64,000 nt of DNA from Thermoplasmatales archaeon (GTDB lineage Archaea; Thermoplasmatota; Thermoplasmata; Thermoplasmatales; Thermoplasmataceae): positions 853,966-917,965 of the forward strand of contig CP060531.1 in NCBI GenBank assembly GCA_016806715.1, read 5' to 3'. The translations under genes were made by a program, and so were the position numbers. Numbering within the stretch: position 1 is the stretch's first letter; every line of letters starts with the position of its first letter. Positions 24,878 through 41,971 of this stretch are shown here, piece after piece. The notes under the pieces are model-generated. The model was not told where the DNA came from, searched no databases, and worked only from the letters and a program-made list of their open reading frames with translations.

Positions 24878-24949
24878 GGGCCGGTAGATCAGCGGTAGAT
24901 CGCCTGCTTCGCAAGCAGGAGGCCTCGGGTTCAAATCCCGACCGGTCCA
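24878..24949 (+). tRNA. tRNA-Ala (anticodon CGC)
   Basis: Complete cloverleaf of 72 nt: acceptor GGGCCGG pairs with CCGGTCC and gives the G3-U70 pair that marks alanine tRNA. D stem GATC/GATC; anticodon arm CCTGC-TTCGCAA-GCAGG with CGC at 34-36 (reads GCG); T arm TCGGG-TTCAAAT-CCCGA; discriminator A. No intron and no encoded CCA. It marks the left boundary of the accessory island, and its 3' end is echoed by repeats downstream. Confidence 0.95.
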
Positions 24950-25178
24950 TTGTGTGCATTGAGTGATTCGAGCAACATATGACAGACCAGCCCTGTGTCT
25001 TAATATCCAGTTCAACTCCACACATTTACACTTCCTTTTTGTATTGTGGTGGAATAGTTTAGAAATTATTCCCACAAATGTACAGTAGTTCCCACAATCT
25101 TAATTAGTCTGTTCTGTATTATCATATAGTCAATTAAAATAGCAGTAATATATACTTATTTTGTATAATACATTAACC

Positions 25179-25766
25179 ATGAAAGCTGAAGAAGTTTTGA
25201 ATTTATTGCAAATTTCCAGAAAAACTCTTCACGTTTACTCAAAGAACGGCAGGATCAGGTACACTGTGATGCCGAATAAACGATACAACTACAATGAGGA
25301 AGACGTTTACAAAATCCTGAACAAGGACGTCAAGAGAAAAACTGTGCTGTATGCACGTGTATCCACATCCAAGCAGAAGAACGATCTGCAGAACCAGATT
25401 CAACAGCTGAAGCAGTGGTGTTTCATGAATGGATATACAATAAGTGCAATATACTCGGATATTGCATCCGGCGTATCATTCGAGAAAAGGAAAGGATTCT
25501 TTGAGATGCTTGATGAGATCATAAACAACAAAGTAGAAAAAGTGATAGTAACCTATAAGGACAGGCTAAGCAGGGTTGGTTTTGAATTATTCAGTTACCT
25601 GTTCAGGAAATACAGGACAGAAATAGTTGTTATATCTGAAGTAGGCAGTACAGAACTTGATTCCGGGGAGTTCTTTGAGGATATAGCTTCAATGCTGCAC
25701 AGTTACTCCATGAAGATGTATTCCAGACACCGGAATCATTCCATTGAGGTCGGGTATGAAGGTTAG
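25179..25766 (+). CDS. tnpA: IS607 serine recombinase (TnpA)
   Basis: 195 residues from ATG 25179; the upstream TTG (25161) lies in the TATA box TTGTATAATA. The N-terminal MerR-like helix-turn-helix (VLNLLQISRKTLHVYSKNG) is followed by the serine recombinase domain with YARVSTSKQKNDLQ (catalytic Ser in RVSTS), the conserved YSDIASG and TYKDRLSR. It moves the element through a circular intermediate. The C-terminus overlaps tnpB. Confidence 0.93.
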   Translation: MKAEEVLNLLQISRKTLHVYSKNGRIRYTVMPNKRYNYNEEDVYKILNKDVKRKTVLYARVSTSKQKNDLQNQIQQLKQWCFMNGYTISAIYSDIASGVSFEKRKGFFEMLDEIINNKVEKVIVTYKDRLSRVGFELFSYLFRKYRTEIVVISEVGSTELDSGEFFEDIASMLHSYSMKMYSRHRNHSIEVGYEG

Positions 25767-27000: not shown

Positions 27001-27024
27001 CATGGTTAACAGAAACCGTAACCT
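26994..27024 (+). ncRNA. Putative omega-RNA 3' scaffold / right end
   Basis: The segment spanning the tnpB stop contains the palindrome GTTAACATGGTTAAC and ends in CGTAACCT. It is conserved in the old relic at 19384, with about 8 differences over the whole 100-nt match. By analogy with other TnpB systems it should form the end of the guide-RNA scaffold. Expression is not shown. Confidence 0.4.
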
Positions 27025-27028
27025 AGCA

Positions 27029-27301
27029 ATGATTGAAGAAGCAAAATTGGACGAAAAGGGACGAATTAACGTAGGTCAAGAGGCAAGAATATTATATGGG
27101 GACAGATTTTATGTTGTCAAATTGTCTGGAGGGATTCTGCTAATTCCCAAGCCCAAAGATCCAGTGACTGAGTTACGAAAGTGGGGCAAAAAAATCGGTC
27201 TCGACAAGCAAACAGCAAGAGATACCACGATGTTGGCTGTTGACCAGGCTAACAAAGAAGTTGAAGAAAGGGCCAACAGAAGGCAAAAGGATATGCGATA
27301 A
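27029..27301 (+). CDS. vapB: VapB antitoxin, AbrB/SpoVT type
   Basis: 90 residues from ATG 27029 (MIEEAKLDEKGRINVG). The swapped-hairpin AbrB domain covers about 1-47 (KLDEKGRINVGQEARILYG..LIPKPKD); the charged C-terminus would bind the toxin. The ATG is 5 nt after the inferred IS607 right end, so its native promoter was probably displaced. Earlier in-frame codons lie inside the IS. The stop abuts the toxin ATG. Confidence 0.8.
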   Translation: MIEEAKLDEKGRINVGQEARILYGDRFYVVKLSGGILLIPKPKDPVTELRKWGKKIGLDKQTARDTTMLAVDQANKEVEERANRRQKDMR

Positions 27302-27673
27302 ATGCCATACGCTGATACAGATTTCTTCATCGCAATTTCGAATTCGAATGACAGGCTGAACAATTGGGCTATCAACACACTGGAAAATTATAAAGGAGCA
27401 ACCTTCACTTCTATACTTACCCTGGTAGAACTAGCGCTGGTAAGCGTCAGGAAAGGGGTACCCGTCGAAGGCATGATCGCTAGCGTCCTATCCATAGCTG
27501 AACTGAAAGGCGCTAGTAAACAAAATGCGTTGGCAGCTGCACACCTTATCGATCATGAAGGTGTGGGTGTGTTTGATGCGTTCCACGCATCACTGTGTGA
27601 AGGTGAGATAATAAGCTCAGATCATATATACGAGAAGCTTGGCGTTAGGCGAGTGGGGTCCGGTTATCTTTAA
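27302..27673 (+). CDS. vapC: VapC toxin, PIN-domain RNase
   Basis: 123-residue PIN nuclease with the acidic residues expected: D5/D7 (YADTDFF), E in TLVELAL and D in GVFDAFHASLC, then SSDHIYEKLG. It starts directly after the vapB stop. It appears intact. PIN toxins cut tRNA or rRNA when freed from antitoxin. Confidence 0.8.
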   Translation: MPYADTDFFIAISNSNDRLNNWAINTLENYKGATFTSILTLVELALVSVRKGVPVEGMIASVLSIAELKGASKQNALAAAHLIDHEGVGVFDAFHASLCEGEIISSDHIYEKLGVRRVGSGYL

Positions 27674-28432
27674 CATCAATCCAAGATAAAGAAAGCATTA
27701 GGCAAATATGAAATTCTTAGAAGATTGCAGTATGGCATTCAATTAAAAATTAAGCAAATCCGTAATAGGTCCACTCGCTTCGACTTCTTATGTTCTTTGA
27801 ATAAATGAGTAGAAGCTTTCATTTCTTTACATTTATCACCTAAAATAATGCCAGGCGCTTCAATATATCCACTCAAATAGAGATTGGATTGAGTTTTAGC
27901 AAAAATCCCACCAATGCATGCTTGTTAGCAACTGAACAATGACCAGTACTTCATATTGCGCAACTTCTGATCGTCGAGAACAAGGTCTCTTACCTCGGAT
28001 TGCAGCTGTTCCCGCTGCCACAGGCATTCCAGGCGACCCACCTCGTCGCGCTGATCTTCAGGAAAGACTGCACGTACAGCTCTGATCCCATAGGCGGCTG
28101 CCCCAATTCCATGTGCAGCCAGATGACACGGACCAATGACTCGGTTTTACAACACGACTCACGAGTTTGAATTCCAATTTCCTTTTGACCCATGGTGAGG
28201 AATAAGCAAATGAGTCATATGGCCAGGATAAGCAGAGAATGGCAATAAATACAATGTCAACGTCACCAACTGAATTGCTAAAACCTTCTAAGAGACCATT
28301 TGAATCTCCATCACCACCATTCTGAATGCGGGGAGATTTTATTGGGAACTCTTATAACCCCTATCTGGAGTATTCGCTTAAAACATTACGTAAATAACGG
28401 AAATTCCATTGATTGTAGTCCGTGAGTAGCGA
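27674..28432. other. Gene-free stretch with a GC-rich coding-like relic
   Basis: About 760 nt. The middle (about 27960-28150) is richer in G+C than its flanks. On the plus strand it stays open as a protein-like frame (LLIVENKVSYLG..., ...DPIGGCPNSMCSQM) without a start or recognisable family. It is probably a fragment of a transferred gene. Repeat R1 lies near the right end. Confidence 0.4.
28371..28404 (+). repeat. att-like repeat R1
   Basis: TATTCGCTTAAAAC followed by ATTACGTAAATAACGG. It keeps the left half of the repeat family, while the tRNA-like right half is weak. It lies about 30 nt from the 3' end of the vapC gene. Confidence 0.5.
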
Positions 28433-28819
28433 TCACTTCAGATCCGAACTTGTCATTACGCGAACTTTCGAACTCGCAATCTTGTATAATTTCATGTCAT
28501 CTGTAACAAGGTTATAGCCTGTTTCAATAGCAGAAACGAGATAGGATGAATCGTAGAATGTCAGCCCTTCTTCCAGTGATAAACTCAGAGTTAATTCTGA
28601 AGAAGGTTTAACAGGTTCAATAGAATCAAACAATTCAAATAAGACAGTTCCCGATTTCAAGGCTTCTTCCTTCGAAATTCTTCCTCTAATGTTATAATTC
28701 TTCCACAGAATATTTCCAATTTCATACCTAGCTAGAGGAATTGTGGCGCCCATCACCAGAATTTCGTACTTTCCGCCCTGAAAGAGATTAAAAATCGCTG
28801 AAGCGTCCAGTATGTTCAT
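28433..28819 (-). CDS. vapC: VapC toxin, PIN-domain RNase
   Basis: 128 residues with intact PIN acidic residues: D5 (ILDASAIFNL), E in ARYEIGNIL, D in TFYDSSYLVSA and D in LVTDDMKL. Its start overlaps the antitoxin stop by 4 nt. The operon is closely flanked by repeats R1 and R2. Confidence 0.85.
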   Translation of the reverse strand: MNILDASAIFNLFQGGKYEILVMGATIPLARYEIGNILWKNYNIRGRISKEEALKSGTVLFELFDSIEPVKPSSELTLSLSLEEGLTFYDSSYLVSAIETGYNLVTDDMKLYKIASSKVRVMTSSDLK

Positions 28820-29043
28820 CTTTCTCTATCTTCACGAATATCTGATACTATATCATCCATCTTTAATTTCAAGATAATTGGTCTAACTTCCTTCATTTTC
28901 TCAATCAATTCCTTATTTCTCTCTCTCCTTATCTCTTCTCTGACTGCCCTTCTAATAATCGTAGTTGGATTTAGTTTGAGCTTTTTGATTTCTTCTCTAT
29001 CTTCTACTGAAATTTTCGCAGAGATTGTGGAATACCGTTTCAT
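28816..29043 (-). CDS. vapB: VapB antitoxin, ribbon-helix-helix-like
   Basis: 75 residues: an N-terminal strand and helix pair (YSTISAKISVEDREEIKKL, TTIIRRAVREEI), then a highly charged helical tail that would wrap the toxin. It is coupled to vapC through an ATGA overlap. An AT-rich promoter region lies at 29044-29075. Confidence 0.8.
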   Translation of the reverse strand: MKRYSTISAKISVEDREEIKKLKLNPTTIIRRAVREEIRRERNKELIEKMKEVRPIILKLKMDDIVSDIREDRER

Positions 29044-29175
29044 AATACAAAATGTAATACATATATTTAAGAATAATGTATAACTAGTGGTATTACCATT
29101 AAGCTAAAATGCCATCCATTGAAATGAACACGAATATACTGTTAAGTATCTTCGTTACTACAAGTGCAGTTTCAG

Positions 29176-29213
29176 TAATTCCTTAAAACTTTAATCAAAT
29201 CCCGACCGGTTAG
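29176..29213 (+). repeat. att-like repeat R2
   Basis: CCTTAAAACTTTAA followed by TCAAATCCCGACCGGT. The last 16 nt are identical to the T arm/acceptor end of tRNA-Ala (24931-24946). It is the best tRNA match in the repeat family. Confidence 0.7.
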
Positions 29214-29263
29214 TATTATTTTGAGGGTGAATTATGTATATTTTACATTCATTATATCCACCT

Positions 29264-29689
29264 ATGGAATCTACACTGAAAAAAGGAGTTACTATAAAAA
29301 AAGAGACCTGAAGCAGTATGGAAGGCACTGACAGACCCTGCAATGACAAAACGGTGGATATGGGTCTTGAAGTCAGCTCAGAATGGGTAGCGGGCGGCAC
29401 CATAACCTGGAAAGGATTTAAAGACGGAAATGAGATCATACACAAGGGCACAATTAAGAGCGTGGAAGTATTAAAAACGCTTCAGTTTACTGATTTTGGA
29501 ATGGAATTAGGGTTATACGACACTCCGGAAAATTACACTAGAATAACTTACAATCTTTCGTTCAACGGTTCCGAAACTATGTTGAGCGTTGTGGAAGATC
29601 ACATCAATGGAAACGAGAAGAGATATAAGGATGCTGAAGCCTTTTGGGAAGCTGTATTATCAGAGTTAAAGAGGACAGTTGAGAGTTAG
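29264..29689 (+). pseudogene. AHSA1/SRPBCC-domain gene with two compensating frameshifts
   Basis: Reading from ATG 29264 gives MESTLKKGVTIKK, then an out-of-frame piece RPEAVWKALTDPAMTKRWIW, then the main frame again from GLEVSSEWVAGGTITWKG to the stop. A one-base insertion just after the A7 run (29296-29302) and a one-base loss near 29357 explain this. Restored, it is a normal START-like ligand-binding domain of the Hsp90-activator family. A short product could start at 29318, but would lack the first strand and helix. Confidence 0.65.
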
Positions 29690-29698
29690 GGCTTAATT

Positions 29699-29732
29699 GT
29701 ATTCCCAAGTGATGTGTAAATACCGGTCTACT
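29699..29732 (+). repeat. att-like repeat, degenerate copy R2b
   Basis: GTATTCCCAAGTGATGTGTAAATACCGGTC is a weaker member of the family. It separates the AHSA1 pseudogene from the relE relic, as expected if each block was once a unit. Confidence 0.35.
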
Positions 29733-29833
29733 TTTGTTAGGTCATAATTTAGAAGAAATCAACATGGTTCCTATTGTGTTCATTTGGCCTTTTGGCAGTA
29801 AGGGAGGGTTTAGTCATAAAAACTATTCATTTA

Positions 29834-29945
29834 TAGATGTTCCTCCTGTGACCCAGCGATCTAACAACTATAACTCGGTTCTACTTCCGAACCTAGCAAA
29901 GAGTCTGTGCGATTGATTCCTGGGCTTTCAGTCTTCTGGTGTTCT
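29834..29945 (-). pseudogene. relE relic with internal deletion
   Basis: On the minus strand the 3' part reads RVIVVRSLGHRRNIYK and stop, the canonical end of a RelE/ParE-type toxin. It matches the relE gene at 33216 at DNA level over about 45 nt. Further upstream, HRLFARFGSRTE resembles HRFFVRLVGRTE of that gene. The central strands are missing, and the junction lies at a short shared GAGTTA-like sequence. No antitoxin remains. It is clearly non-functional. Confidence 0.65.
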
Positions 29946-31381
29946 CATTTATTGTAGAGCTCCCTTTCTATGTCGGAAAGGTTCATCAAAGTCACGCCTT
30001 CAGCAGACTCATGCAGGACTCCCTTGAATCCGCTCTTGGAAAACACTGCATATGTATATCTTTTTCCGGGGTATTGCTTTATCAGTGTTTCTGATTTTGC
30101 CCTTAAGTCTGCAGCCACACTCATTGGTACAGGCTTATTTGTCCACTTACATTCGGCAAAAAGCAATTCATTCCGTGTTTCAGAGTAAGCAACAATATCA
30201 ATCTCCTCGATGTCTTTGCCTTTCTTTCCAGTTCCATTCCTCCCCCACCATCTGGAAACAGTACCGAATGTTCTGCCCAATATGCCTTCCGTCACAAGCT
30301 CCTTCATGAGGACCTCAAACTGTTCGCCAGCAAAAGATGCAAAATCTCCCATTATGCTGTCAAGGGCTTCCTCCGTGTGTGAGCTCTCAATTTCACTCCT
30401 ATGTGGCAATATATATCTGAACCAGAACTTCAGGTACTGGTCGGATATCCAGTAAAGCCTTCTCTTGAACTTTTCGGGAGCTCCAAAAGGTTTCTCAGGA
30501 ATAATAAGTCCCAACGAAATAAGCACGTCCAGGTATTTTGACACCATGCTCTTGTCCATGCCAGAGTAGTTGCATATCTCTGCAAGCGAATGGTTTCCGT
30601 ACGATATGGACCTGAGAATCAGCATGTAATTTCTTGGTTCCCTGAATTCAGTCATGAGCAGGAATTCTGCTTCTTCATACAGTGACGTCCCCTTTGAAAG
30701 CATGAACCTTGAAACGTTTTCCCAGAATTTCAGATCCGGGTCAAATTTCAGGAGGTATTCAGGTATCCCGCCAAGGATGAAATATGTCCGGCAGAGATCT
30801 TCAAACCCATAGTTAAAAAACCTGGTCAAGAACCTGAACTTTAATGGGGTTAACTGCAGCTGTCCGGTTCTTCTGCCGTATAAAGGGCTTTTGTATGAAA
30901 GTACTTCATTCTCCATGATGCTGACTGAAGAGCCAGACAGAATCAGCATTACATTCATTTGACTGATTATCGAGTCATATATCTTCTGGAACACTGACGG
31001 GATAGCTCTATTGGCTTCTATGAGATACGGGAATTCATCTATTGCAATGATAACTTTTGATATTCTTACCCTGGACTGAAATGAACTGCTGGAGGCCAGT
31101 ATGGAGAAAAATGAGTACCAGTCCTCGAAATGCACTTTGAGTATGCTGTTGTCCTGGAGAAACTTTGAGAATGCCACCTTGAAATTGTCAATGTTTTCTC
31201 GGTCACCTTCCGTGGTGGCAAGAAAATAAACCCCTCTGTTTTCTATGAACCTAGAGATAAGTTCAGTTTTCCCAATCCTTCTCCTTCCGTAAATAATGAA
31301 GAGCGATGCCCCCTTAGAAGAATAGGCATCTTCTAGTATTTTCATTTCCCGGTCCCTACCTACGAATAGTTGTTGAGACAT
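29945..31381 (-). CDS. Archaeal ATPase with DUF234 nuclease-like C-terminus
   Basis: 478 residues. The N-terminal STAND-like archaeal ATPase (PF01637 type) has VGRDREM, Walker A YGRRRIGKTEL (about 31-41) and Walker B IIAIDEFPYL. A winged-helix segment follows (NYSGMDKSMVSKYLDVL). The C-terminal DUF234 domain has FAECKW, which resembles the ExK of PD-(D/E)xK nucleases. These proteins are common in archaeal mobile regions and are of unknown role. A TATA-like stretch lies at 31388-31400. Confidence 0.85.
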   Translation of the reverse strand: MSQQLFVGRDREMKILEDAYSSKGASLFIIYGRRRIGKTELISRFIENRGVYFLATTEGDRENIDNFKVAFSKFLQDNSILKVHFEDWYSFFSILASSSSFQSRVRISKVIIAIDEFPYLIEANRAIPSVFQKIYDSIISQMNVMLILSGSSVSIMENEVLSYKSPLYGRRTGQLQLTPLKFRFLTRFFNYGFEDLCRTYFILGGIPEYLLKFDPDLKFWENVSRFMLSKGTSLYEEAEFLLMTEFREPRNYMLILRSISYGNHSLAEICNYSGMDKSMVSKYLDVLISLGLIIPEKPFGAPEKFKRRLYWISDQYLKFWFRYILPHRSEIESSHTEEALDSIMGDFASFAGEQFEVLMKELVTEGILGRTFGTVSRWWGRNGTGKKGKDIEEIDIVAYSETRNELLFAECKWTNKPVPMSVAADLRAKSETLIKQYPGKRYTYAVFSKSGFKGVLHESAEGVTLMNLSDIERELYNK

Positions 31382-31456
31382 AAGTATTATACTTTATAGT
31401 CCACGATTATTTATATCTACCCAAATCCTAATCTCCAAAATGCTCACGCACAACGT

Positions 31457-31496
31457 TTTCCCTTAAAACCTTAATCAAATCCCAACCTGTCCATTC
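31457..31496 (+). repeat. att-like repeat R3
   Basis: CCCTTAAAACCTTAA then TCAAATCCCAACCTGTCCAT. The right half matches the tRNA-Ala 3' end including the discriminator region, with two substitutions. Confidence 0.65.
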
Positions 31497-31579
31497 CGGC
31501 TTATTCTTTGACCGTAAGAATTTAAATTTGTGTATTCTTTTCCACGTTAATCTGCGTCGCAGTGCTCAAAGCGACAAGG

Positions 31580-31588
31580 TTTATAATT
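31580..31588 (+). promoter_or_regulatory. TATA box of the vapB gene at 31610
   Basis: TTTATAATT, 22-30 nt before ATG 31610. Confidence 0.5.
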
Positions 31589-31609
31589 TACACACATATG
31601 TGATTGTAT

Positions 31610-31810
31610 ATGTCGAGCAAGAACATATCGATCTCAGATGATGCTTACAACAGATTAAAGAAATTCAAAGGCAAAAAAGAAAGCTTCACCGACGTTATAA
31701 TCCGGCTCACTTCAAAGGCCACTTTGCTTGAATTGAGAGGCACCCTCTCAAAGGAAGAAGCTGACTCGATGAGAATTAGTCTTGAGGAGTCAAGAAGTGC
31801 AAGCAGGTAA
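31610..31810 (+). CDS. vapB: VapB antitoxin, DUF217-like
   Basis: 66 residues from ATG 31610 (MSSKNISISDDAYNRLKKFK). The pattern KKESFTDVIIRLT is typical of the archaeal VapB family (DUF217/UPF0330), with an N-terminal DNA-binding part and an acidic/basic tail. It precedes a PIN gene that carries a stop codon, so the antitoxin may be an orphan. Confidence 0.8.
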   Translation: MSSKNISISDDAYNRLKKFKGKKESFTDVIIRLTSKATLLELRGTLSKEEADSMRISLEESRSASR

Positions 31811-31837
31811 AAATGGATTTGCTTTTTAGGAATTAGA

Positions 31838-32236
31838 ATGACAGTGATAGCTGATGGAACTTTTCTCATAGATCTCATGAGAAATGACAAACCTGCGGTA
31901 GAGAAGGAAACCATTCTTGAGGAAGATGGGATTTCTGTTTTTCTAACAACAGTATCTGTGTTTGAACTTTACGTGGGTCTAAACCTTAGCAGTAATAGGG
32001 TACATGAGAGCAGGAAAATAGAAAGAGTTCTTGGGAATCTTGAGATATTGCCGTTTGATTTCGATTCTGCGAAGGAAGCAGAAGAAATTTATGCCTAGAA
32101 GAAGAGAAGCGGACTTACTATAGACCAAGAAGACGCAGTGATTACGGGTATATGCAGGACAGCCATGGAACCTGTTATGACAAGAAATATCGACCGTTTT
32201 TCGGGAATTGAAGGTGTAGCATTGGAAACGTACTGA
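31838..32236 (+). pseudogene. vapC: VapC toxin interrupted by an in-frame amber codon
   Basis: The frame runs from MTVIADGTFLIDLM to EEIYA, then TAG at 32096-32098, and continues in the same frame as KKRSGLTIDQEDAVITGIC...RNIDRFSGI to TGA (32234). Both parts together make a normal 130-residue PIN domain with D6, E in VFELYVGL, and the late acidic residues in DQED and NIDRF. The TAG probably replaced a leucine TTG. The truncated product loses half the active site. Confidence 0.75.
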
Positions 32237-32401
32237 TCAAGTTGGCATGACCCATCCCCTCATGAAAATTAAAGCCCCAAGTATACTCGCTTTTCTTCTT
32301 AAAAGCCTAGGCAATCTATGCAATCTGAAGCACCGGATTCAGACTTAAATTACCCAATTATCTGATCTGAAACGCGGTAGACGAATGATCTGCTCGGTAG
32401 A

Positions 32402-32809
32402 TCACACCTCAATAACTTCTATTCCAATCTTTTTGCACTCTTTAGTTAGTGTCTTATCAAAAGTTATTAGTGGCATATTCCTAGAATGTGCGTCGTATGC
32501 AACTATCCAGTCATTAAATTCTCTGAAGCTGAGACTGTTTTCAACCATGAATGCTGAAGTCCCTTCGATCATCCTGGCAGATAGCCAGGAAACCGTAAAA
32601 TAATCACTATGGAGTACTTCCTCAAGCTTCAACCCGACCTTTTCCCTATCGATCCCATATCTTGGTAATACAAATCCGAGTTCAACAATTGAAAGTGAAT
32701 TTACCAACGGATCTCCTGTTTCATCTATAATCTCAGATGCCCGATTATGGTGTGGCGAGTTCTCAATAGCGTCGTAGACCAGAACGTTGGTGTCAACCAT
32801 GGTTTTCAT
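32402..32809 (-). CDS. vapC: VapC toxin, PIN-domain RNase
   Basis: 135 residues from ATG 32809, which overlaps the antitoxin stop by 4 nt (ATGA) and is preferred over the upstream ATG at 32827. Acidic PIN residues: MVDTNVLVYD, SIVELGFVL, FNDWIVAYDA and ITFDKTL. It is intact and convergent with the broken vapC at 31838. Confidence 0.85.
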   Translation of the reverse strand: MKTMVDTNVLVYDAIENSPHHNRASEIIDETGDPLVNSLSIVELGFVLPRYGIDREKVGLKLEEVLHSDYFTVSWLSARMIEGTSAFMVENSLSFREFNDWIVAYDAHSRNMPLITFDKTLTKECKKIGIEVIEV

Positions 32810-33042
32810 TCGTTTCTTCTTTCCCACCCCTTTCTAATCTCACTGTCTGCATCCAGCGATGCAAGATCTTTCCTGACTTTAAACTGGATTCGTGTTACCC
32901 TTTTTCCTCCTTCGGTTGCCTTTTTCCCGAGGCGTTGATTAATGATCTTTGATATGTTCTTTGTGCTGCCATATTTTTCAATGGATTCTTTAACAATATC
33001 GGCATAGATTTCATCGTCAAGGTTGATTGTGGTCTTAACCAT
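32806..33042 (-). CDS. vapB: VapB-like antitoxin
   Basis: 78 residues from ATG 33042 (MVKTTINLDDEIYADIVKE). TTINLDDEIY is the beta strand of a ribbon-helix-helix fold, followed by a basic region (RLGKKATEGGKRVTR) and an acidic tail. The TATA-like GTTTATATGG (33061-33070) lies 19-28 nt upstream of this start, which rules out the longer frame. Confidence 0.75.
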   Translation of the reverse strand: MVKTTINLDDEIYADIVKESIEKYGSTKNISKIINQRLGKKATEGGKRVTRIQFKVRKDLASLDADSEIRKGWERRNE

Positions 33043-33160
33043 GACTGAATAATTATAATGCCATATAAACATTTTACGGTAAAACGGCATACCCAATAAC
33101 AGCACATAGTTCCACCGAGCAAATTGCATTCCATTGCCTGTCTCCAATCCTACGTTAATG

Positions 33161-33200
33161 TATTGCCCAACACCTTAATCAAATACCTACCGGCCCATTC
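33161..33200 (+). repeat. att-like repeat R4
   Basis: TATTGCCCAACACCTTAATC then AAATACCTACCGGCCCATTC. It lies 15-50 nt from the relE 3' end. Confidence 0.55.
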
Positions 33201-33215
33201 TGACTGTAATTCGCC

Positions 33216-33509
33216 CTAGTGATTGCAAAAGCACGATCTAAGAAGGAACTTAGTCACTTGTAGATGTTCCTTCTGAGACCCAAGCGATCTAACAACTATA
33301 ACTCGTCTATTCTCTTCAATGTCCGCAATCACCCTGTAGTCACCGACTCGTAGCTTGTATTCGGTCCTACCAACTAATCTCACGAAGAACCTATGCGGAT
33401 CGCTTCTTGTGTTTTCTATCTTCTGAAGAATCCTCTTTGCTACAGGAATGTCAAGACCCTTAAGCTGAAAAAGAGATTCCTCGGAATGTTCAACTTCAAA
33501 GTCTGTCAC
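33216..33509 (-). pseudogene. relE: RelE/ParE-type toxin with a 3' frameshift
   Basis: 97-residue frame. Residues 1-75 follow the RelE fold (RILQKIENTRSDPHRFF, LRVGDYRVIADIEENRRVIVV). The end reads RSLGSQKEHLQ instead of the canonical LGHRRNIYK. The relic at 29834 lacks one base near 33282; removing that base here gives RSLGLRRNIYK and a stop at 33254-33256. So this copy has a +1 insertion, which replaces the catalytic C-terminal tail with about 20 foreign residues. Activity is doubtful. The gene is coupled to relB by ATGA. Confidence 0.7.
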
Positions 33510-33748
33510 TGGATTCCCAACTGTTTCTTCACTTCTTCTGTGGTATGGGTCTTCTTTTCCTTCACATCAAGGAGGCCCCTAAGCAGGGATGCCCTGAAAT
33601 TCTCAGTATAAACTCCCTCTTCATCTCCCTCGGGAATCAGCGACATCAGTGCATTCAGCAACTCATCATATGTCATTCTCTTGTAGGCTCTCAATCCATT
33701 CAGTTTCTCCCTCGTAGATCGGCTGATTTGTATGGTGGTGTAATCCAT
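33506..33748 (-). CDS. relB: RelB-like antitoxin
   Basis: 80 residues: MDYTTIQISRSTREKLNGLR is a ribbon-helix-helix start (strand then helix), then TYDELLNALMSLI and a charged tail ending VKKQLGIQ. It partners the downstream RelE-type gene with a 4-nt overlap. The pair is bracketed closely by repeats R4 and R5. Confidence 0.8.
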   Translation of the reverse strand: MDYTTIQISRSTREKLNGLRAYKRMTYDELLNALMSLIPEGDEEGVYTENFRASLLRGLLDVKEKKTHTTEEVKKQLGIQ

Positions 33749-33880
33749 GTATATGACTTGTATAATCTATCTATAACTACAATATAATCCTTGCATTTTA
33801 GACCATCGAGCCTGGAACTCAAGTAATGTTGTGGCATTATGAGATTACGAAGAGTTTATTTTATTCGCACATAGCAGAAA

Positions 33881-33922
33881 GTATTCCCTTAAAACTCTAC
33901 GCAAATACCAACCGTCCCGTCA
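33881..33922 (+). repeat. att-like repeat R5
   Basis: TATTCCCTTAAAACTCTACG then CAAATACCAACCGTCCCGTC. It has a full left half and a recognisable tRNA-like right half. Confidence 0.55.
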
Positions 33923-34164
33923 TGATAAGGATGCTATGCATTCTTTATTCAAGAATTATTAATTCGATTTGAATAAGTGGAAGGGTATACTGACCTGCCA
34001 GATGAGCCCTTGTTGTGGAAACCAATGATTGGATTCACGTATTTTTATCAATATCCAATCTGGTTTTGATGTCTATAGGTTAGGCGACCTTGAAACGCGC
34101 CTGCAACATGAAATGAAGGGGTATGCCAGAGATTGTAGTTGAAAATCGTAGTTGGTTTGGATTA

Positions 34165-34740
34165 TCAGCTAGTGTCCTCCGGGATCCACTCTATCTCTAT
34201 ATGCATCTCCAATTTTTTATTTTCTTTGGCATATACGAATTTGAATTTCAAGGGTTCCACGGGAATGATACTCACGCGCTCTTCAATGGGAAAAAGACGT
34301 GACGTCTCGATCATGTCATTCCTGAGCGCTGATCCTATTTTTTCAAGAATATTCGCAATCTCATCCTTACTGGCTTCGCTCCTGAACCTTACTATTGTTT
34401 CGTGCATTTCGCGATAGTTTTCGAGCACTTCGGTAATTTTTGTCCAATGGTGCATCGAATGTTTGAGCTCCGTGATTCCATTCTCAGTTAAGGCATAGTG
34501 TCTACGACTCGGCAATTCGTCTGTGAACTCCACGCTGCTTGTTACAAATCCTTCTTGCTCAAGTTTCTCAAGTGCGGGATATATTGTCCCAGTCTGTGGC
34601 GTCCAGAATCCAGAGAACTTTTTCTCCAATTCCTTTATCATTTCATATCCGTACATTGGCCTTTCTGACAAAAGCAGAAGGAGCCAGAGGGAGACCGTAC
34701 CAACCCTCATGCCTCTCGGCATCTTCTTCGGCACAATCAC
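34165..34740 (-). CDS. PadR-family transcriptional regulator
   Basis: 191 residues with an N-terminal PadR winged helix: LLLLSERPMYGYEMIKELE, then GTIYPALEKLEQEGFV and the wing with RRHYALTENG. A helical C-terminal domain for dimerisation follows. It is divergent from the chrB-like gene with only 52 nt between starts, so it probably represses both. The effector is unknown, perhaps an oxyanion or oxidative stress. Confidence 0.88.
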   Translation of the reverse strand: MIVPKKMPRGMRVGTVSLWLLLLLSERPMYGYEMIKELEKKFSGFWTPQTGTIYPALEKLEQEGFVTSSVEFTDELPSRRHYALTENGITELKHSMHHWTKITEVLENYREMHETIVRFRSEASKDEIANILEKIGSALRNDMIETSRLFPIEERVSIIPVEPLKFKFVYAKENKKLEMHIEIEWIPEDTS

Positions 34741-34750
34741 TCATTGGAAA

Positions 34751-34784
34751 CATTTATATTAATTCATCTTATACCTATGTAGGT
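34751..34784 (+). promoter_or_regulatory. Divergent promoter with candidate PadR operator
   Basis: CATTTATATT (34751-34760) is a TATA box for the chrB-like gene. The inverted repeat ACCTATGTAGGT (34773-34784) lies just after it, where a repressor would block initiation. Both divergent genes share this short interval. Confidence 0.45.
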
Positions 34785-34792
34785 GAACTACT

Positions 34793-35260
34793 ATGAGATG
34801 GGTAACTAGAGAAAAAGCGAAAGTAGATAGGATTGCATGCCCGTGGGTAATTTCGCGGTTTATCGACAAAGAGCCAGAATTTCTGTTTGTACCGAAGGAT
34901 AAAGTCCTAGAGGTTGCCAAGGCGAAAAATGCCATCCCATTCGACTCCCCCGGAGCTGAATTGTACCATTATGAAGTGGACGGAAAAGAGTATGTGAGCT
35001 TTGATTCTATCATAAAGAAGTATAATCTCAAAGATCCCGCTTTGCTAGAATTTGCCAAAATAGTAAGAGGAGCAGATGCAAACATACCTGACGCTCCGCC
35101 AGAATCAGCGGGACTTGAGGCTGCTGCGCTTGGATTCAGGGAAATAACGAAAGATGACCATGAGAATATGAAACTTCAGTTCCCGTTTTACGATGCCATG
35201 TATGCATATGTGAAAGGACAGATGGAAGGAAAGGCCAAACTAGAACACGCAAAGAAGTGA
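34793..35260 (+). CDS. ChrB-like (chromate resistance) domain protein
   Basis: 155 residues matching the C-terminal domain of ChrB. The start RWVTREKAKVDRIACPWVISRFID with conserved Cys, PFDSPGAELYHY and IVRGADAN are typical. In bacteria ChrB relates to chromate sensing or resistance, sometimes with a chromate transporter; none is seen here. It is followed by the beta-propeller gene, and a role in metal or oxidant stress is plausible. Confidence 0.8.
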   Translation: MRWVTREKAKVDRIACPWVISRFIDKEPEFLFVPKDKVLEVAKAKNAIPFDSPGAELYHYEVDGKEYVSFDSIIKKYNLKDPALLEFAKIVRGADANIPDAPPESAGLEAAALGFREITKDDHENMKLQFPFYDAMYAYVKGQMEGKAKLEHAKK

Positions 35261-36008
35261 AAACCAGAGGCAATCCAGGTAGGAGAAGGGGATAATATTG
35301 TTGCATTTTCTGGAGAAAAAAGAACTCCCTGAGGAAGAAGAATGCGAATTCGATCATGGGGATGTGGACAACTCTACGGGAAGAGTCTTTGTCACGCATA
35401 CAAGCACAGGGACAGTCAAAATATTTGACGGGAAAGAAGGCGAGTGGACAGGCTCCATACCTAATTGTGCCGGTGGAAGTGGAGTGGTTTTTGACCCAAA
35501 CACAAAAATTGTCTTTGCCGCATCCAGGGCAGAAGGTCATATTCTTGCGATAAATCCTGTTTCCCTTGGCATTCTGAACAAATTCGGAACCGGAAAGAAG
35601 CCGAATGGACTGGCCGTGGATGGAAAACGAGGTATTCTCATGACAGCAGATGTTGGGGACAATATAGCGAGGTTCCACAACCAGAAGACAGGGGAAATTG
35701 TTGCCACCGTTAAGCTGAGCGGCAGGCCAAGATGGTGCACCTATAGGAAAGAAAGTGACGAGTATGTGATCAACATAATGGATCCACCAGGCGTGGAGTT
35801 CATTGCAGGGAAGGGCTTTACACGAACCAGATTCTTCGATGTCGACCAGAAAGGGCCGCATGGACTTGTGATTGAAAGAAACACGGCATATGTTGCATGC
35901 GACGATGCCACCATGGTAACTATTGATCTCGACTCCGCAAAACTTGTATCCAGGGTAAAGCTGGCAGGCTCACCGGATGTCTTGTGGTACAACAGGAAAC
36001 AGAATCTA

Positions 36009-37221
36009 GATTATCGTTCGCTTAATTACTAGTCTATCTTTATATCTTCATTTACGTTATACTTGCGATATAAATGGTTTTTAAGAGAAAATATCCAAAG
36101 CCAGACCTTTCAGAAGAGGATCTGAACAAGCTCAGGAGAATCAGGTCATCGATGAAGGAGGAAAAGAGGAGAGTAACAAGGGCATCCATAATCCTCGATT
36201 ATCTTGAGGATTACAGCGACGACAGGATTGCAGCAAGGAACGGCATGAACAAGAATACGGTGAAGAAATGCCTGTCAAAGCTGAGGGAATTTGGCATGGA
36301 GGCTGCACTGAACGATCTTCCAAGACCTGGAAAGCCCAGAACGATTACAGATGATGATAAGTCATGGATCCTTAACCTTGCATGCACAAAACCAGCGGAA
36401 CATGGATACCCGGACGAGCTCTGGCCCTATACCCTCTTGACCGGACACATAAGGAAGAACAGGTCATCCCTTAAGAATATAAGCAGATCCACAGTCTTCG
36501 AAATACTCAATGAGGCGGAGATAAAACCTCACAAAATCAGGTACTATGTGGAAAAGAGGGATCCTGACTTTGAGGGAAAAATGGCCACGGTACTGCACGT
36601 ATACAAGGAGGTGGACATGATCAACAATGGTTTCATAATACCCGAGCTGAAGGACACAATAACCGTATCATTCGATGAGAAGCCGGGAATGCAGGCAATA
36701 TCAATGACATCAGAGGAGCTCCCTCCCGTTCCCGGAAAGTATCCATCTGCCACGAGGGATTATGAGTATAAGAGGCTGGGCACCCTGTCCCTTCTGGCAG
36801 GCATAGACCTGCATTCCGGTATTGTTACGGAAACTGTGAGCAGAACACATAACAGCAATGATTTCATAGCATTCCTGAAGAAACTGGATTCGTCGTATCC
36901 CAAAGATAAGAGGATAAGGGTTATTCTGGATAATCTAAGGGTGCACACATCGGCGAAAACAAGGGAATTCCTGCTGACAGTGCCAAACAGGTTTGACTTT
37001 GTTTTCACTCCAAAGCATGGATCATGGCTCAACATAGTGGAGACACTTTTCAGCAAACTGGCCAGGACCATGCTCCGTGAGATCAGGGTAAAAAGCATGG
37101 ATGAACTGAAGGACAGGATTGATCAGTACTTCCAGGAAATTAACAAGTCTCCTGTCATCTTTAGATGGAAGTATAAAATGGATGATATCACAATAGCATA
37201 GGAATTAAGCGAACGCTAATC
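36009..37221 (+). mobile_element. IS630-family insertion sequence
   Basis: 1213 bp. Terminal inverted repeats are GATTATCGTTCGCTTAATTAC (left, 36009) and its counterpart at 37201-37221, matching at 19 of 21 positions. Target duplication is TA (36007-36008 and 37222-37223), within CTAG. The single transposase gene fills the element. Clean ends and an intact gene suggest a recent insertion. Confidence 0.92.
36074..37201 (+). CDS. IS630 transposase
   Basis: 375-residue DDE transposase: N-terminal helix-turn-helix (DDRIAARNGMNKNTVKKCLSK, shown here in parts: RIAARNGMNKNTVK), then the catalytic triad in VSFDEKPGM, RVILDNLRVHT and WLNIVETLFSKL. The triad is complete and the frame is open throughout, so it looks active. 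Stop at 37199-37201 overlaps the right inverted repeat by one base. Confidence 0.93.
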   Translation: MVFKRKYPKPDLSEEDLNKLRRIRSSMKEEKRRVTRASIILDYLEDYSDDRIAARNGMNKNTVKKCLSKLREFGMEAALNDLPRPGKPRTITDDDKSWILNLACTKPAEHGYPDELWPYTLLTGHIRKNRSSLKNISRSTVFEILNEAEIKPHKIRYYVEKRDPDFEGKMATVLHVYKEVDMINNGFIIPELKDTITVSFDEKPGMQAISMTSEELPPVPGKYPSATRDYEYKRLGTLSLLAGIDLHSGIVTETVSRTHNSNDFIAFLKKLDSSYPKDKRIRVILDNLRVHTSAKTREFLLTVPNRFDFVFTPKHGSWLNIVETLFSKLARTMLREIRVKSMDELKDRIDQYFQEINKSPVIFRWKYKMDDITIA

Positions 37222-37497
37222 TAGTTTATTGCAGCGTTGGCGATCCAGGGGTCGTGCAGGTCTTTAACGGAAAAACCCTTGAAATGGTTCAGCAGGTTGA
37301 AACAGAGTACGGTAGCCACACCCTAACCTTTGATGAAAACCTGCAGAAGCTTTACACTTTCCTTCCTGAAAGCCATTCAGTCGGAGTTTATCAGGCTTAA
37401 TTGAAGTTGAATATACATTTCACAAAAGTTTATTTTTTTAAAACATGCAGTGAGTTGCACTGACCTAGATTGATTAGCTCACTGCAAGAGAATATTG

Positions 37498-37520
37498 TAT
37501 TTCCTTAAAACATAAATTAC
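37498..37520 (+). repeat. att-like repeat, weak copy R6
   Basis: TATTTCCTTAAAACATAAAT keeps only the left half of the repeat family. It is included because it falls between two gene blocks. Confidence 0.25.
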
Positions 37521-37592
37521 TTAAGAAATTATTCAATTGATAGTTTCAGAATCATCGTATTTGAGATTGTCAGGGGATTCTCCAAATTCATA

Positions 37593-37805
37593 ATGGACAA
37601 AACAAAATCACCTGACTTCAAGATTCCTGAACTCAGTACATCAAGAAACGAAAACAATACAACCAGGGAAAGAATAATTTCCACTGACTCTGAGGAAAGG
37701 AAATCGTTAGGGATAAACAAGTCAACATTGTGGTATCAACAAAAAAGATTAAAAAAAGGTAAGCTGGTTAAACTTTACAAAAAGACAAGGTCAAGAATTG
37801 AATGA
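37593..37805 (+). CDS. Small basic protein, possible gene fragment
   Basis: 70 residues; the second half (EERKSLGINKSTLWYQQKRLKK in parts: RKSLGINKSTLWYQ, KGKLVKLYKK) looks like a helix-turn-helix tail. I recall a similar motif at the C-terminus of some archaeal Cas1 proteins, but this is from memory and weak. It is probably a truncated remnant. It overlaps the next reading frame at 37802 by 4 nt. Confidence 0.35.
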   Translation: MDKTKSPDFKIPELSTSRNENNTTRERIISTDSEERKSLGINKSTLWYQQKRLKKGKLVKLYKKTRSRIE

Positions 37806-38643
37806 CAAATTACAAGTTAATAGCCATAAAACTAGGAGATAATTTGAAATATGGTAGTTCTGTCAACGAAATTAACAGAATTGCCAAAGCTGTATTCCCC
37901 TTTAACAAGAAGTAGCATTCGAATGATAGCATAACATCAGTGAGATCTCAAGAAGTCTATGACTGGGTTCTAACCCTGTCAGAACAAGATTTAACAGAAA
38001 GCGATAGGGAAAAACTTCTTTCAAGCATTACAATGGAATTGACAACAGAATTTGCCATATCTTAAGTCTCTGAAGGGTTTGATATTGTAAAAAAACCGTC
38101 CGAAAGACCGAACGTTAAAAATGTAGATTCTAAGAACGTGTTCGTTTTAATGCCCTTTGAAGACCAATTCCAAACTATGTACTGTAATGTCATAAAACCA
38201 GTGGTCGAATCACTTGGCTATTCAGTATCGAAAGCCGATGAGGATTTAAGTATCGGTAATGTAATTGAACAAATACAGCAATCCATAAGAGATGAACGGT
38301 TAGTTGTAGCCGATGCGGCCGGTGCAGCTGGTTCTGCTTCACTAAGCGTTGGCTTGGGCACAACGGCTGCAGCTGTATTCGCCATTACCGATGCACTGGT
38401 GACAAGCGACTTGTTAAATCATCCGGATGGGCCATACTATACCATTTACGATGAATTTGGAGTCGATTTCACCAATACTTCTATTTGGGAGTTTTGGGCA
38501 TTGCCACCTAATTTTGGTTTCTATGGAGAGTTTGGAGCCAAAGTTGGGGCAGCATATAGCGGATCTGGCGTAAGCATTTACTATCCTGTTATAACAAGTT
38601 ATCTGCTTCCAAAGAGTCATTGTACATTCATGCCATATTATTA
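37802..38643 (+). pseudogene. Degraded gene with TIR/deoxyribosyltransferase-like domain and two in-frame stops
   Basis: One frame from ATG 37802 runs to 38643, broken only by TAG (37913) and TAA (38063). After a helical N-terminal part comes VFVLMPFEDQFQTMYCNVIK, with SKADEDLSIGNVIEQIQQSI and LVVADAAG. This pattern fits TIR-like or nucleoside 2-deoxyribosyltransferase-like domains of defence proteins. From about 38308 the sequence changes to a Gly/Ala/Tyr-rich stretch unlike that fold, so the 3' end appears fused to foreign DNA. A shorter product from GTG 38138 is possible. Confidence 0.55.
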
Positions 38644-38726
38644 GCCTCCGTGGTACTGAAGGCCAATTCATTCTTTGTAACCAAGATTTTTTATATCTTA
38701 TTTAATAATATGAGGTGAGGGATCGA

Positions 38727-39257
38727 ATGCGCCTTGGGAGAGTTGCATATATTCTAATTGTTGCCGGCATGTTTCTCTTTATTCTGGGGGTTGGAATTAA
38801 CCCTTATTTGCATGATATGAACTCATCAGGTACCATCACAACCGCAAGATTTTCCCAGTTGACATATTATGAAAATGGCCTCTATGTAACGATAATTCCA
38901 TCCAATATGACAGAACAGATGACGAGCATGGATGTGGCAGTGAATCCAAATTCCAGCGGACCTGGTAACGTCTCTCTGCTGGTTCTGGTCAAGGATCTTC
39001 CCACTCTGAACTACTCAAATGCCCAGAATTTCGGCATAAAACCATCAAACAACGATTCGGCAAATATATGGTTCGACAATGTCCCGCCCGGTTCCTATGC
39101 GTTCGTTGAATCACAGAACAATTCCATGGCAATGATTGTTGACCCGCAGATACCTTTGGATACTGCAGGTGTGCTGACATTTGTAGGGGCAGCCCTGATC
39201 TTTTCCGGTTTTGTCATATTCATTGTTTCATTTGCCACTAGAGGACGAAGGAGATAA
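38727..39257 (+). CDS. Two-helix membrane protein with extracellular domain
   Basis: 176 residues from ATG 38727, preceded by GAGGTGAG at a good distance. Hydrophobic helices lie near residues 6-24 and 145-168, with a sequon-rich domain between (NMT, NSS, NVS, NYS, NDS, NNS) and a basic C-terminus RGRRR. Topology suggests a short loop outside the cell. No family is recognised. Confidence 0.65.
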   Translation: MRLGRVAYILIVAGMFLFILGVGINPYLHDMNSSGTITTARFSQLTYYENGLYVTIIPSNMTEQMTSMDVAVNPNSSGPGNVSLLVLVKDLPTLNYSNAQNFGIKPSNNDSANIWFDNVPPGSYAFVESQNNSMAMIVDPQIPLDTAGVLTFVGAALIFSGFVIFIVSFATRGRRR

Positions 39258-39374
39258 TGACAAAATTAGATGAAAACATTGGATTGACTGCAGTAAGTAA
39301 TCCATTGCACCTGTCATAACATCTGTTTAAACAGATTCAATATCCTCCAGTACCCCTCTTATCTACAATCTTTA

Positions 39375-40511
39375 TTGGTACCGGTTCATACAAGCCTAGC
39401 GAGATTCAAAAAGGTCATTCTTTCCTGGTTGAAGTTTAACTGCATCGGTTTGCAGTTAACCGTTAACATATCCGTGGAAAACGAAACACCGACAATCGTT
39501 AACGAGAGAGTGCCCAGCAAGGAAGAGCTTGCCAGAATACTCAGGAAAGCCACTTCCAGAGGCAGAGTTGCCATTGCAATTATGGCTTTTTCCGGACTGA
39601 GACCGGAATCCCTGGGAGACTATGAAGGCACAGATGGCCTGAAGCTAGGCGACATCAAGGACTTGCACATATCGATGAGATACAGTTCGAAAAGACCCCC
39701 TGCGATGATTGTGGTGAAGAACAAGCTGAGCAAGGTAAGGCACCAGTACTTCAGCTTCATCGGAGAAGAAGGTGCCACTTATATCAAAGAATATCTTGAA
39801 GAGAGAAGGAAACAGGGTGAAGAGTTGACCTACGAGTCTCCATTATTGCAGTTCGACGTTAGGGGAGTAAAGAAGAACGCATTCCTGAGAACCACTCTTG
39901 TTACCATGGATATACGGGAAGCCATAGAGAACTCAGGCCTGAAGGTGCGTCCCTATGTCCTGATGGCATACTTCTCGCCGGCACTGGACATAGCAGAAGC
40001 GAGGGACTTAATATCTCACCCATGGAGACAGTTCATAATGGGCCACAAGGGAGATATTGAGGCAGGATAAAGCACAAACAAAAGATTGCCTCCTGATATG
40101 ATCGAGGAGATGAGAGAGGCATACAGTAAGAGCACGAAATTCCTTAAAACCAAGTACAGTGAGCTCGAAGAGGATAAGGCAAGATTGTATCTGCAGCAGC
40201 AACTCCTGTCAGCGGTTGGCTACAAACCGGAGGAGATTGACAAAATGGATCTTACTGACATAAGCAACGACCAGTTGGGGAGCTCGTTCAGTGTAACAGG
40301 CGCAAATGAAAATGCCATAGCTATCCTGAGCAGAGTTCAGGAAGAAACCGGCGATCCTGCTGCTCTGGCATTCCTGTGCATAGCTCTGTTCAGGTATGGA
40401 GAACTTAAGAAGTCACTCAAGACCGCCTTAAGTTTCGTCCTGTCATTAAATTACGGGCTATTGCCTGAGTATAAGGGAGCCCTTTCAAGGTACATTGATG
40501 AAATTTGTTGA
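39375..40511 (+). pseudogene. Tyrosine recombinase/integrase, nonsense at the nucleophile position
   Basis: The frame from TTG 39375 gives a SAM-like end and catalytic domain: FSGLRPESLG (first Arg), KNKLSKVRHQYF (Lys), HPWRQFIMGHKG. After GHKGDIEAG comes TAA (40068) and the same frame continues STNKRLPPDMIEEM to 40511. Archaeal homologues have a Tyr there (RYSTNK or similar), which is the nucleophile. The second Arg of RPYVLRAYF is Met here. It is dead, and the probable relic of the island's integrase. The N-terminal half is also missing. Confidence 0.75.
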
Positions 40512-40560
40512 CGTCTGATTGTCGTGTTGCGACTCAATCTTGGAAATACAAGATTGAATA

Positions 40561-41463
40561 TTACTCTCTTCCTTTAATTTCGCTATAAAGAATTATGGCT
40601 GCCTGACTGGTCTTCCACCTGTTGTTTAATCTAATTCCAGGAAGCTCCCCCTGCTGGATTCTGAGTGCCAAGTATTTGGTCGAGTAATCCGTACCTGAGG
40701 TTTTTTTTGCCTCGTCCAGGGTTAATAGCATATCCTCCTCGGCTCCTACCTTGTCAAGCACAAAAATGAGAGACCTTGCCATACTTGTCTCCAGAAAACC
40801 TGTCAATGTGTCCAGGCCATTAAGATGGGCAGACTCAAGAGCATCAAGGTAGGAGTTCCTGTCATGAGGTAGGATGTGGATGAGTGGCCAGTTGTGATTA
40901 AGGAAGTGTATATTGAGCAGTAACCTGCCAACTCTTCCATTTCCGTCTGAAAATGGATGTATGGATTCAAATCCAAAGTGCATTGCAGCGGCTTGAGAAA
41001 ATACATCTTCGCGATTCAATTCCAATGACATGTAATGTTTCTCCCATTCCTGCAGGAGAGAAATTAGCTTCTCCACTCTTGGAGGAGAATACCTTGAACC
41101 CGAGATTCTGACATTAACCCTTCTCCACTGTCCTGCATCAGTAAGGATTCCATGAAATATCATGTCATGCAAATCCAGGGCACTTTCCATGTTGACTCCA
41201 CGTATTTTTCCACGTACCACTTCAGCTAGAGCTGATAAGTGCTGAACAGTTTCTTGCAGGTCTCTGACAGGTCGATCAGGTACAGTCATGCCACTTTCAA
41301 TTACCTTGGTCACTTCAGCCAGAGTGAGAGTGTTCCCCTCAATTGCATTGGTTCCCCAGGTATTCAATATAAATGATTCTTGAAGCGTCTTTTCTGGCAA
41401 ATTACGTAATGGGCCTCGGTCCAACATTCTCATCCTGAGTTTGTTCAATATGTCTCTATCCAT
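40561..41463 (-). CDS. Fic family protein
   Basis: 300 residues. The Fic core motif HPFSDGNGRVGR (169-180) is intact. The N-terminal TNAIEG (38-43) matches the inhibitory (S/T)xxxE(G/N) helix, so it is a class II Fic with built-in inhibition. A winged-helix-like tail follows (SQAAIILYSEIKG). Fic enzymes transfer AMP from ATP to Tyr, Ser or Thr of proteins. The target is unknown. It is intact among decayed neighbours. Confidence 0.88.
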   Translation of the reverse strand: MDRDILNKLRMRMLDRGPLRNLPEKTLQESFILNTWGTNAIEGNTLTLAEVTKVIESGMTVPDRPVRDLQETVQHLSALAEVVRGKIRGVNMESALDLHDMIFHGILTDAGQWRRVNVRISGSRYSPPRVEKLISLLQEWEKHYMSLELNREDVFSQAAAMHFGFESIHPFSDGNGRVGRLLLNIHFLNHNWPLIHILPHDRNSYLDALESAHLNGLDTLTGFLETSMARSLIFVLDKVGAEEDMLLTLDEAKKTSGTDYSTKYLALRIQQGELPGIRLNNRWKTSQAAIILYSEIKGRE

Positions 41464-41971
41464 AGTTCAGATAGTGATACATATTTAATATATAAGTATG
41501 TATGGTTTAAATGAAAAATATTATAAATTCCATATTACAATTTCCAATTTTGGAACTCCTCTGGTTACTATTCCCGAACCGCTCATTATGATTTCACTAT
41601 CATTTCTGATTATAGCCTCTACCAGTCTCTGAAAGACCGGCATTAGAATGGGGTTTGTTATGAAAAAAGTGAATACAACCTTTTCTGCAGTATTCGCTTA
41701 AAATATTATACGAATCCCCCTCTGACCGCTATATCACAAATACTCTCGCTAGGGCTTGTGAAGTAACTGGATTTCTCATGATGAATGGAAATAAACTTGG
41801 TAAAATAGGCATAAAGTAAGTTAATTCAGGATTTTTCATTTGATGTGTGATGGAAATTATCAAAGTTAAAGCATAAACTTTTTTTGCCTTTCGGAATGAC
41901 ATTTGTGTGATGAATTGGGAAACATTCGAGATAATGAACATAATAGATACCGAAATAGAAGCAAAGCTTGC
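41464..41971. other. Intergenic region with repeat R7
   Basis: About 510 nt. It holds the AT-rich promoter of the fic gene (near 41470-41520), repeat R7 and the upstream region of the HxlR gene. No further gene is convincing. Confidence 0.4.
41691..41729 (+). repeat. att-like repeat R7
   Basis: TATTCGCTTAAAATATTATA then CGAATCCCCCTCTGACCG. It has the family left half, with a diverged right half. It is the rightmost copy seen. Confidence 0.5.

Follow-up and report, generated by a model that had tools for sequence, protein, structure and literature searches.

An integrase reading frame with a stop codon at its catalytic tyrosine raises two questions: is the enzyme dead, and did its death freeze the cassette array in which the gene lies? 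The frame occupies positions 39375-40511 of the plus strand in a stretch of archaeal DNA of 64,000 nucleotides (the window; G000:C1:853966-917965 of a single-contig genome of 1.96 Mb) and is open except for a single TAA at 40068-40070. The original prediction, made from the window alone, answered yes to the first question and to the second gave a provisional yes: the array would be frozen unless another integrase acted in trans.

A species-level genome scan found relatives of the integrase at 47 loci, nearly all titled Thermoplasmata or Thermoplasmatales, with best segments 49-92% identical. With two paralogues from the same genome as the window these make 49 loci, 46 of which cover the catalytic columns. 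Intact relatives have 429 residues, counted from a Met common to them. By blastn and tblastn, the relic extends from 39383 to 40270 on the plus strand, matching residues about 80-376 of the intact relative L011, with in-frame coverage of the intact relatives at about 85-376. In translated alignments a Tyr stands opposite the TAA. This residue, the nucleophile Y308, is present in all 46 covering loci and is encoded by TAC in 32 and TAT in 14, so that, as predicted, TAA is reachable by one change. The second catalytic Arg, R273, is equally invariant (46/46) and is replaced in the window by Met, again as foreseen; the ATG at 39963-39965 on the plus strand is one change from the AGG used in 26 of the 46. 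Its equivalence to the Arg of the HxxR box comes from hhalign with two recombinases of the same genome, which placed PYVLR on PHVLR and MGHK on LGHS in a low-probability, weakly scoring alignment that served for the column match only. Among the other catalytic residues, R152 and H300 occur in 46/46 loci and K196 in 45/46, and the relic keeps all three (Arg I, Lys and His). What it lacks of an active recombinase is the nucleophile, where TAA stands, and the HxxR Arg, where Met stands.

The damage extends beyond the active site. About 84 of the 429 residues are missing at the N-terminus, approximately a fifth; the predicted N-terminal loss is thus real, but it does not amount to half the protein. 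The TAA lies eight residues past the His of GHKG and six past its last Gly, not nine past the motif. At the other end, 51 or so integrase residues have been lost, and DNA homology stops at 40270. Codon comparison with the relatives also revealed a plus-strand stretch (39674-39700) that is out of frame between two compensating indels, a -1 after 39674 and a +1 in the C run at 39696-39700, garbling about 10 residues. The recombinase can be called dead, as had been claimed: it has lost two catalytic residues, an internal stretch and both ends, and with so many lesions a mistaken base in the TAA would not by itself restore it. On this sequence evidence the relic is a pseudogene of a tyrosine recombinase and, as a single gene, ordinary. 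By a crude test that counted in-frame stops and alignments broken into several pieces, seven loci among the relatives carry damaged integrases, so integrase loss is common.

The assignment to the tyrosine recombinases depends on the intact relatives. Pfam gave no integrase match for the relic; an intact relative failed to reach PF00589, and its NCBIfam match (XerA) fell far below the cut-off. The first profile matched no PDB sequence, and an enlarged one matched a single sequence weakly, the archaeal Xer 4a8e (E 0.0014). An AlphaFold model of an intact relative (24 sequences; pLDDT 76, pTM 0.48, with the stretch around the Tyr below 50) matched tyrosine recombinases throughout: archaeal Xer 4a8e (Z 15.2, rmsd 13.2 over 258 residues), XerA 5hxy (Z 14.6), the integron integrase 2a3v (Z 12.9, rmsd 8.6 over 253 residues) and the SSV1 catalytic domain 3vcf (Z 10.9, rmsd 3.1 over 141 residues). 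The rmsd values of 8.6-13.2 A are as expected if the domains are placed differently. The modelled two-domain catalytic fold and the presence of the R..K..R..H..Y set indicate that the intact relatives are tyrosine recombinases by ancestry. A nucleotide-level search of plasmid records did not find the integrase, and among viral contigs, none of the 29 stretches that fit a pattern encoded an integrase relative.

How long has the relic been dead? Its overall dN/dS against the relatives is 0.03-0.05 (computable in six of eight pairs), so it was functional for most of its history. The excess of dN over that between intact pairs, around 0.03 amino-acid-changing substitutions per site, would give a rough age for the pseudogene; the low ratio fits a recent death, without itself demonstrating recency. 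The same low dN/dS, together with the long open frame, could instead mean that a truncated product was exapted, for example as a DNA-binding regulator like the catalysis-free integrase-like repressors, and SPbeta-type regulators (MrpR/YopR) and phi3T SroF are indeed among the structural neighbors. However, the N-terminal domain and C-terminal tail are gone, there are two frameshifts, and 14 of 218 residues that are invariant among eight intact relatives are altered, compared with 1-7 in the intact copies when each is left out in turn. Nor did any of three same-genus genomes contain a match. We therefore consider exaptation very improbable and treat the frame as a pseudogene.

The position of the intact genes suggests what the enzyme recognized. 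Of the 45 loci with usable upstream DNA, 23 carry an exact copy of the tRNA-Ala 3' end in the 260 bp before the integrase start. The spacing is 49 bp in 22 of these 23; L012 has two copies, the first at 180 bp and the other closer to the gene. ARAGORN called some tRNA upstream of the integrase in 36 of the 45 (Ala, Val, Leu, Gln, Cys, Met, Pro, Arg and one undetermined), and all of the integrases most like the window's (at least 78% identity to L011) for which it called a tRNA have tRNA-Ala there. Three integrases at tRNA-Val, tRNA-Leu and tRNA-Cys (L029, L031 and L045) are 95-100% identical in their catalytic and C-terminal parts (residues 263-429) and 37-46% identical in the N-terminal domain (residues 1-112); the family looks mosaic and has perhaps been retargeted by N-domain exchange.

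This arrangement also bears on whether the relic is the int(C) part of an SSV-type ('suicidal') integrase, split on integration through an attP inside the gene. The missing N-terminal fifth would fit, as would the many N-terminal scraps among the relatives, at least three of which are in fact contig ends. Against it, the relatives carry the whole intact gene 49 bp behind the tRNA, with the core outside the gene, and the window array contains no int(N), the genome's sole N-terminal scrap being at tRNA-Val, about 398 kb away. Given the intact genes behind the tRNA in the relatives and no int(N) in the array, we have rejected this reading as having hardly any likelihood; truncation of a once whole gene is the account we retain.

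A unit of 17-26 kb begins with the integrase in G011 and G015 (two units each), G014 and G026. It also encodes ParA, a serine resolvase and AAA proteins, and it was measured up to the first good site (the G026 stretch being cut at a weak one). By inference from this gene content, the unit is a plasmid-like integrative element. Beyond it in the relatives come cassettes of 0.7-5 kb, mostly toxin-antitoxin. Since in most relatives the integrase adjoins tRNA-Ala and the cassettes lie beyond it, capture may not be strictly at the tRNA. Other orders occur: in G036 a site runs straight into an arm and a scrap of the integrase N-terminus, in G026 a site is followed by a broken integrase, and in G019 cassettes lie between tRNA-Ala and an intact integrase.

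What bounds the cassettes is a site of 41 bp, GTATTCCCTTAAAACATTAATCAAATCCCGACCGGTCCATT, consisting of a 20-bp arm and a 21-bp core, the latter being the tRNA-Ala 3' end plus the next two bases. Across 66 sites, conservation spans 41 columns and ends sharply at both sides. A search pattern with five free positions and up to 3 mismatches found 80 sites in 27 of 61 related genomes, including that of the window, and a reversed-pattern control found none. Four sites were folded as single strands and gave -1.8 to 0 kcal/mol, three no better than shuffles and the fourth only slightly so (z -0.91); no attC-type hairpin was found among these four. Good sites also occur in draft genomes in which no Ala-type integrase was found (G003 and G029, for example), which suggests that the presence of the site and of the enzyme are not tightly coupled among these genomes. 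The best site of the window's genome (44.8 bits; L175:10238; G000:C1:1348237) is outside the window; its core is altered, and it follows tRNA-Val(gac) at a distance of 7 kb.

The window indeed contains the cassette array that the original prediction assumed. It spans 24950-41730 and begins at an intact tRNA-Ala(cgc) gene (24878-24949, plus strand, ARAGORN), 14.4 kb upstream of the relic and in the same orientation. The last bases of this gene plus two more (24931-24951) form the site core and match positions 21-41 of our site model, R1; the tRNA gene is the likely attB. A full scan with R1 (E < 0.02) found eight sites besides the tRNA, all on the plus strand: a decayed partial site at 27737-27761 (16.4 bits, E 0.00066 in the window); a decayed site at 28370-28410, which opens an 805-bp cassette with homologues of 798 bp in G029 and G032; sites at 29175-29215 (39.9 bits) and 31455-31495 (40.1 bits, the best in the window); a decayed site at 33159-33199, which opens a 722-bp cassette matching a 721-bp cassette of G015 over its whole length at 82% identity; a decayed site at 33881-33921 (25.7 bits); an arm alone at 37497-37518 (12.0 bits, E 0.016); and a last decayed site at 41690-41730 (20.2 bits), which is the right end of the array. 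All are eroded, with 4-12 mismatches in 41 positions, and the best reaches 40 bits, where the complete genomes G011, G014, G015 and G026 have best sites of 54-58 bits. The array thus reads as a worn-out row of small cassettes.

Two junctions in this array are informative. At its left end, a VapBC-type cassette of family F2 (24952-27777, plus strand; vapBC homology 82-93%) is joined directly to the tRNA-Ala 3' end; at its start it can be aligned with the F2 cassettes that come after arm-plus-core sites in G015 and G018, and the switch falls inside the core. At the right, the relic passes at 40270/40272 into the C-terminal half of a TPR-like gene (40272-40511, plus strand), fused in frame and 73-77% identical in amino acids to a separate gene in G007, G011, G018 and G020. 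The breakpoint is common to TPR-Fic cassettes of several genomes, and the TPR-like gene with fic is a separate unit in G018, G011, G020 and others. The Fic-domain gene of the window's terminal TPR-Fic cassette follows at 40561-41463 on the minus strand (PF02661, E 1.2e-21; 93% amino-acid identity to G018), and the G018 cassette aligns to window positions 40272-41718 at 87.5%.

Some other contents of the array deserve mention. An IS607-type element with resolvase and OrfB/TnpB-like domains is inserted in the first cassette, at about 25105-26990 (25161-27000), and a DDE_3 (IS630-type) element lies near 36003-37227 (36074-37201), with terminal inverted repeats of 47 nt that are 81% identical. Two ORFs at 38138-39257 have paralogues elsewhere in the genome (L006, about 248.7-249.5 kb), where they neighbor a Phage_integrase-type frame.

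Are the cassettes common to other genomes? We removed the sites from 57 inter-site segments of less than 6 kb and compared the bodies that were left. Counting as pairs those in which more than 70% of each body matched, we found 31 end-to-end pairs in nine families, with neighbors that differ between genomes. Two of the 31 are identical cassettes of G029 and G032, which may reflect binning. One cassette of 1.94-1.97 kb is present in five genomes. Another, of 1829 bp, is 99.9% identical in genomes of different families (f1 and f3; L109:9601-11470 and L174:17719-19588), which suggests recent transfer. The cassettes are small, carry one site each in a single orientation and lie, in the relatives, beside an integrase and an anchor, as in an integron array; in the window the integrase of this set is dead. 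The units are also bounded by copies of a tRNA 3' end and have no recombinase of their own, as in tandem tRNA-anchored islands. Pfam matches among 113 cassette ORFs (of 161 listed, short and duplicate ORFs being excluded) included PIN (14), ParE toxin (10) and VapB (7), as well as methylase, Fic and others.

The repeats could instead be promoters of the toxin-antitoxin genes. The arm does hold a TATA-like CTTAAAA, and several sites in the window are just upstream of minus-strand genes. However, half of the site is a tRNA-Ala 3' end, the ORFs of the cassettes run in either direction with respect to the site, and homology between genomes breaks at the sites: of 1018 ends of homology blocks, 169 (16.6%) fall inside a site, against 1.0% expected (524 blocks of at least 300 bp between genomes, counting both directions, keeping insertion sequences and excluding the G029/G032 pair). 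With block ends in the sites and the switch inside the core, we rejected the promoter explanation, which is left with scant probability, in favor of recombination sites. Homologous recombination between these 41-bp direct repeats might also have moved the cassettes, with no part played by the integrase. This we regard as unlikely, less so than a promoter role, since the cassette at tRNA-Ala is joined there despite only 21 bp in common, and an arm-like motif recurs in inverted form beside the integrase gene. Site-specific recombination is what we favor.

Did the dead integrase freeze the array? A whole-genome search found no second tRNA-Ala-type integrase, which agrees with that proposal. The search did find two intact paralogues of 45% identity, at tRNA-Arg and tRNA-Pro. 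There is also a paralogue of 50% identity with a ruined tail and an N-terminal scrap behind tRNA-Val. The paralogue with the ruined tail (L101, about 9640-9711; G000:C1:1621.6-1621.7 kb) is preceded by a short copy of the tRNA-Pro 3' end and an arm, as if displaced from tRNA-Pro. The proposal is nevertheless supported only in part, since support is lacking for the loss of the integrase as the cause. With 4-12 mismatches per 41 positions in the sites and an excess of only about 0.03 in the relic, most sites had probably decayed before the integrase did, and immobility of the array probably preceded the enzyme's death. No correlation between site decay and integrase loss across genomes is claimed, because integrase-less draft genomes keep good sites. 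The tRNA-Ala gene is intact, so an incoming element with its own integrase could still insert there.

Taken together, these data make it probable that the frame is the relic of a tRNA-Ala-specific recombinase from a plasmid-like element, lying in a tRNA-anchored cassette array built through 41-bp sites. The lesions, the fusion, the sites, the cassettes common to several genomes and the position of the integrase next to a tRNA in the relatives are direct observations. We infer that the intact enzyme would recombine the tRNA-Ala 3' end with the 41-bp site through its arm and tRNA-like core, and that small cassettes without an integrase, mostly toxin-antitoxin, would be excised, captured and shuffled by the enzyme acting in cis or in trans, giving a one-directional array anchored at the tRNA. 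Recombination was not observed in these genomes, and no circular cassette was seen. In the window, later cassettes would have entered at tRNA-Ala ahead of the integrase, displacing the older integrase from the tRNA; a deletion would then have fused it to the TPR gene of the next cassette and removed the remaining element. The N-terminus was also lost, Arg II changed to Met and the nucleophile Tyr changed to a stop.

The relic is less interesting than its setting, a widespread cassette-accumulating locus in acidophilic archaea and a tRNA-anchored, integron-like array of presumed mobility. In the literature searched, a coverage that takes in few subscription papers, no tRNA-anchored cassette arrays of this kind were found. 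With a site defined in sequence, an anchor and a candidate enzyme, integron-like gene capture in archaea becomes directly testable. Similar designs exist in bacteria: in SCC-type and CIME-type arrays, att-bounded passengers without an integrase pile up at the 3' end of a host gene. The window array resembles these in its passengers and their position but is archaeal, uses tRNA-Ala and a tyrosine recombinase, and has much smaller units.

Between them, PMC8371274, PMC9668308, PMC5155288, PMC12302457 and PMC6563490 cover tandem elements and integrons of archaea as well as islands at the tRNAs of acidophilic archaea. Tandem integrated elements and tRNA-targeting tyrosine integrases are described in a review (PMC8371274) and in PMC6563490. 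The present array shares with them the tyrosine recombinase, the tRNA 3' end as target, the tandem arrangement and the integrase-less elements; unlike them, its units are mostly few-gene cassettes of 0.7-5 kb that have one fixed 41-bp site in common, and some of these cassettes are found over their whole length in several genomes. GInts, which have a four-gene module, are described in PMC5385486 as bacterial genomic islands around tyrosine recombinases that were not found in archaea; they are alike in being built around such enzymes and unlike in their host. Archaeal integrons with IntI and attC, as described in PMC9668308, share an integrase, an anchor site and a one-directional array of small shared cassettes, as well as arrays with no integrase nearby. 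The differences are that the site here is a sequence-conserved arm with a tRNA-like core and no hairpin fold, that the anchor is a tRNA gene, and that the integrase resembles Xer and brings a plasmid-like unit with it. We suggest tentatively, at somewhat less than even confidence, that Thermoplasmatales-type archaea have an integron-like capture system independent of IntI/attC, with a tRNA-Ala anchor, an Xer-like integrase on an integrative plasmid and a 41-bp tag, carrying toxin-antitoxin and defence cassettes across genera, and with N-domain-swapped integrases serving parallel systems at other tRNAs. Overall, the window's array is worn out; in other acid-loving archaea it has live relatives, which appear to assemble cassette arrays much as bacterial integrons do.
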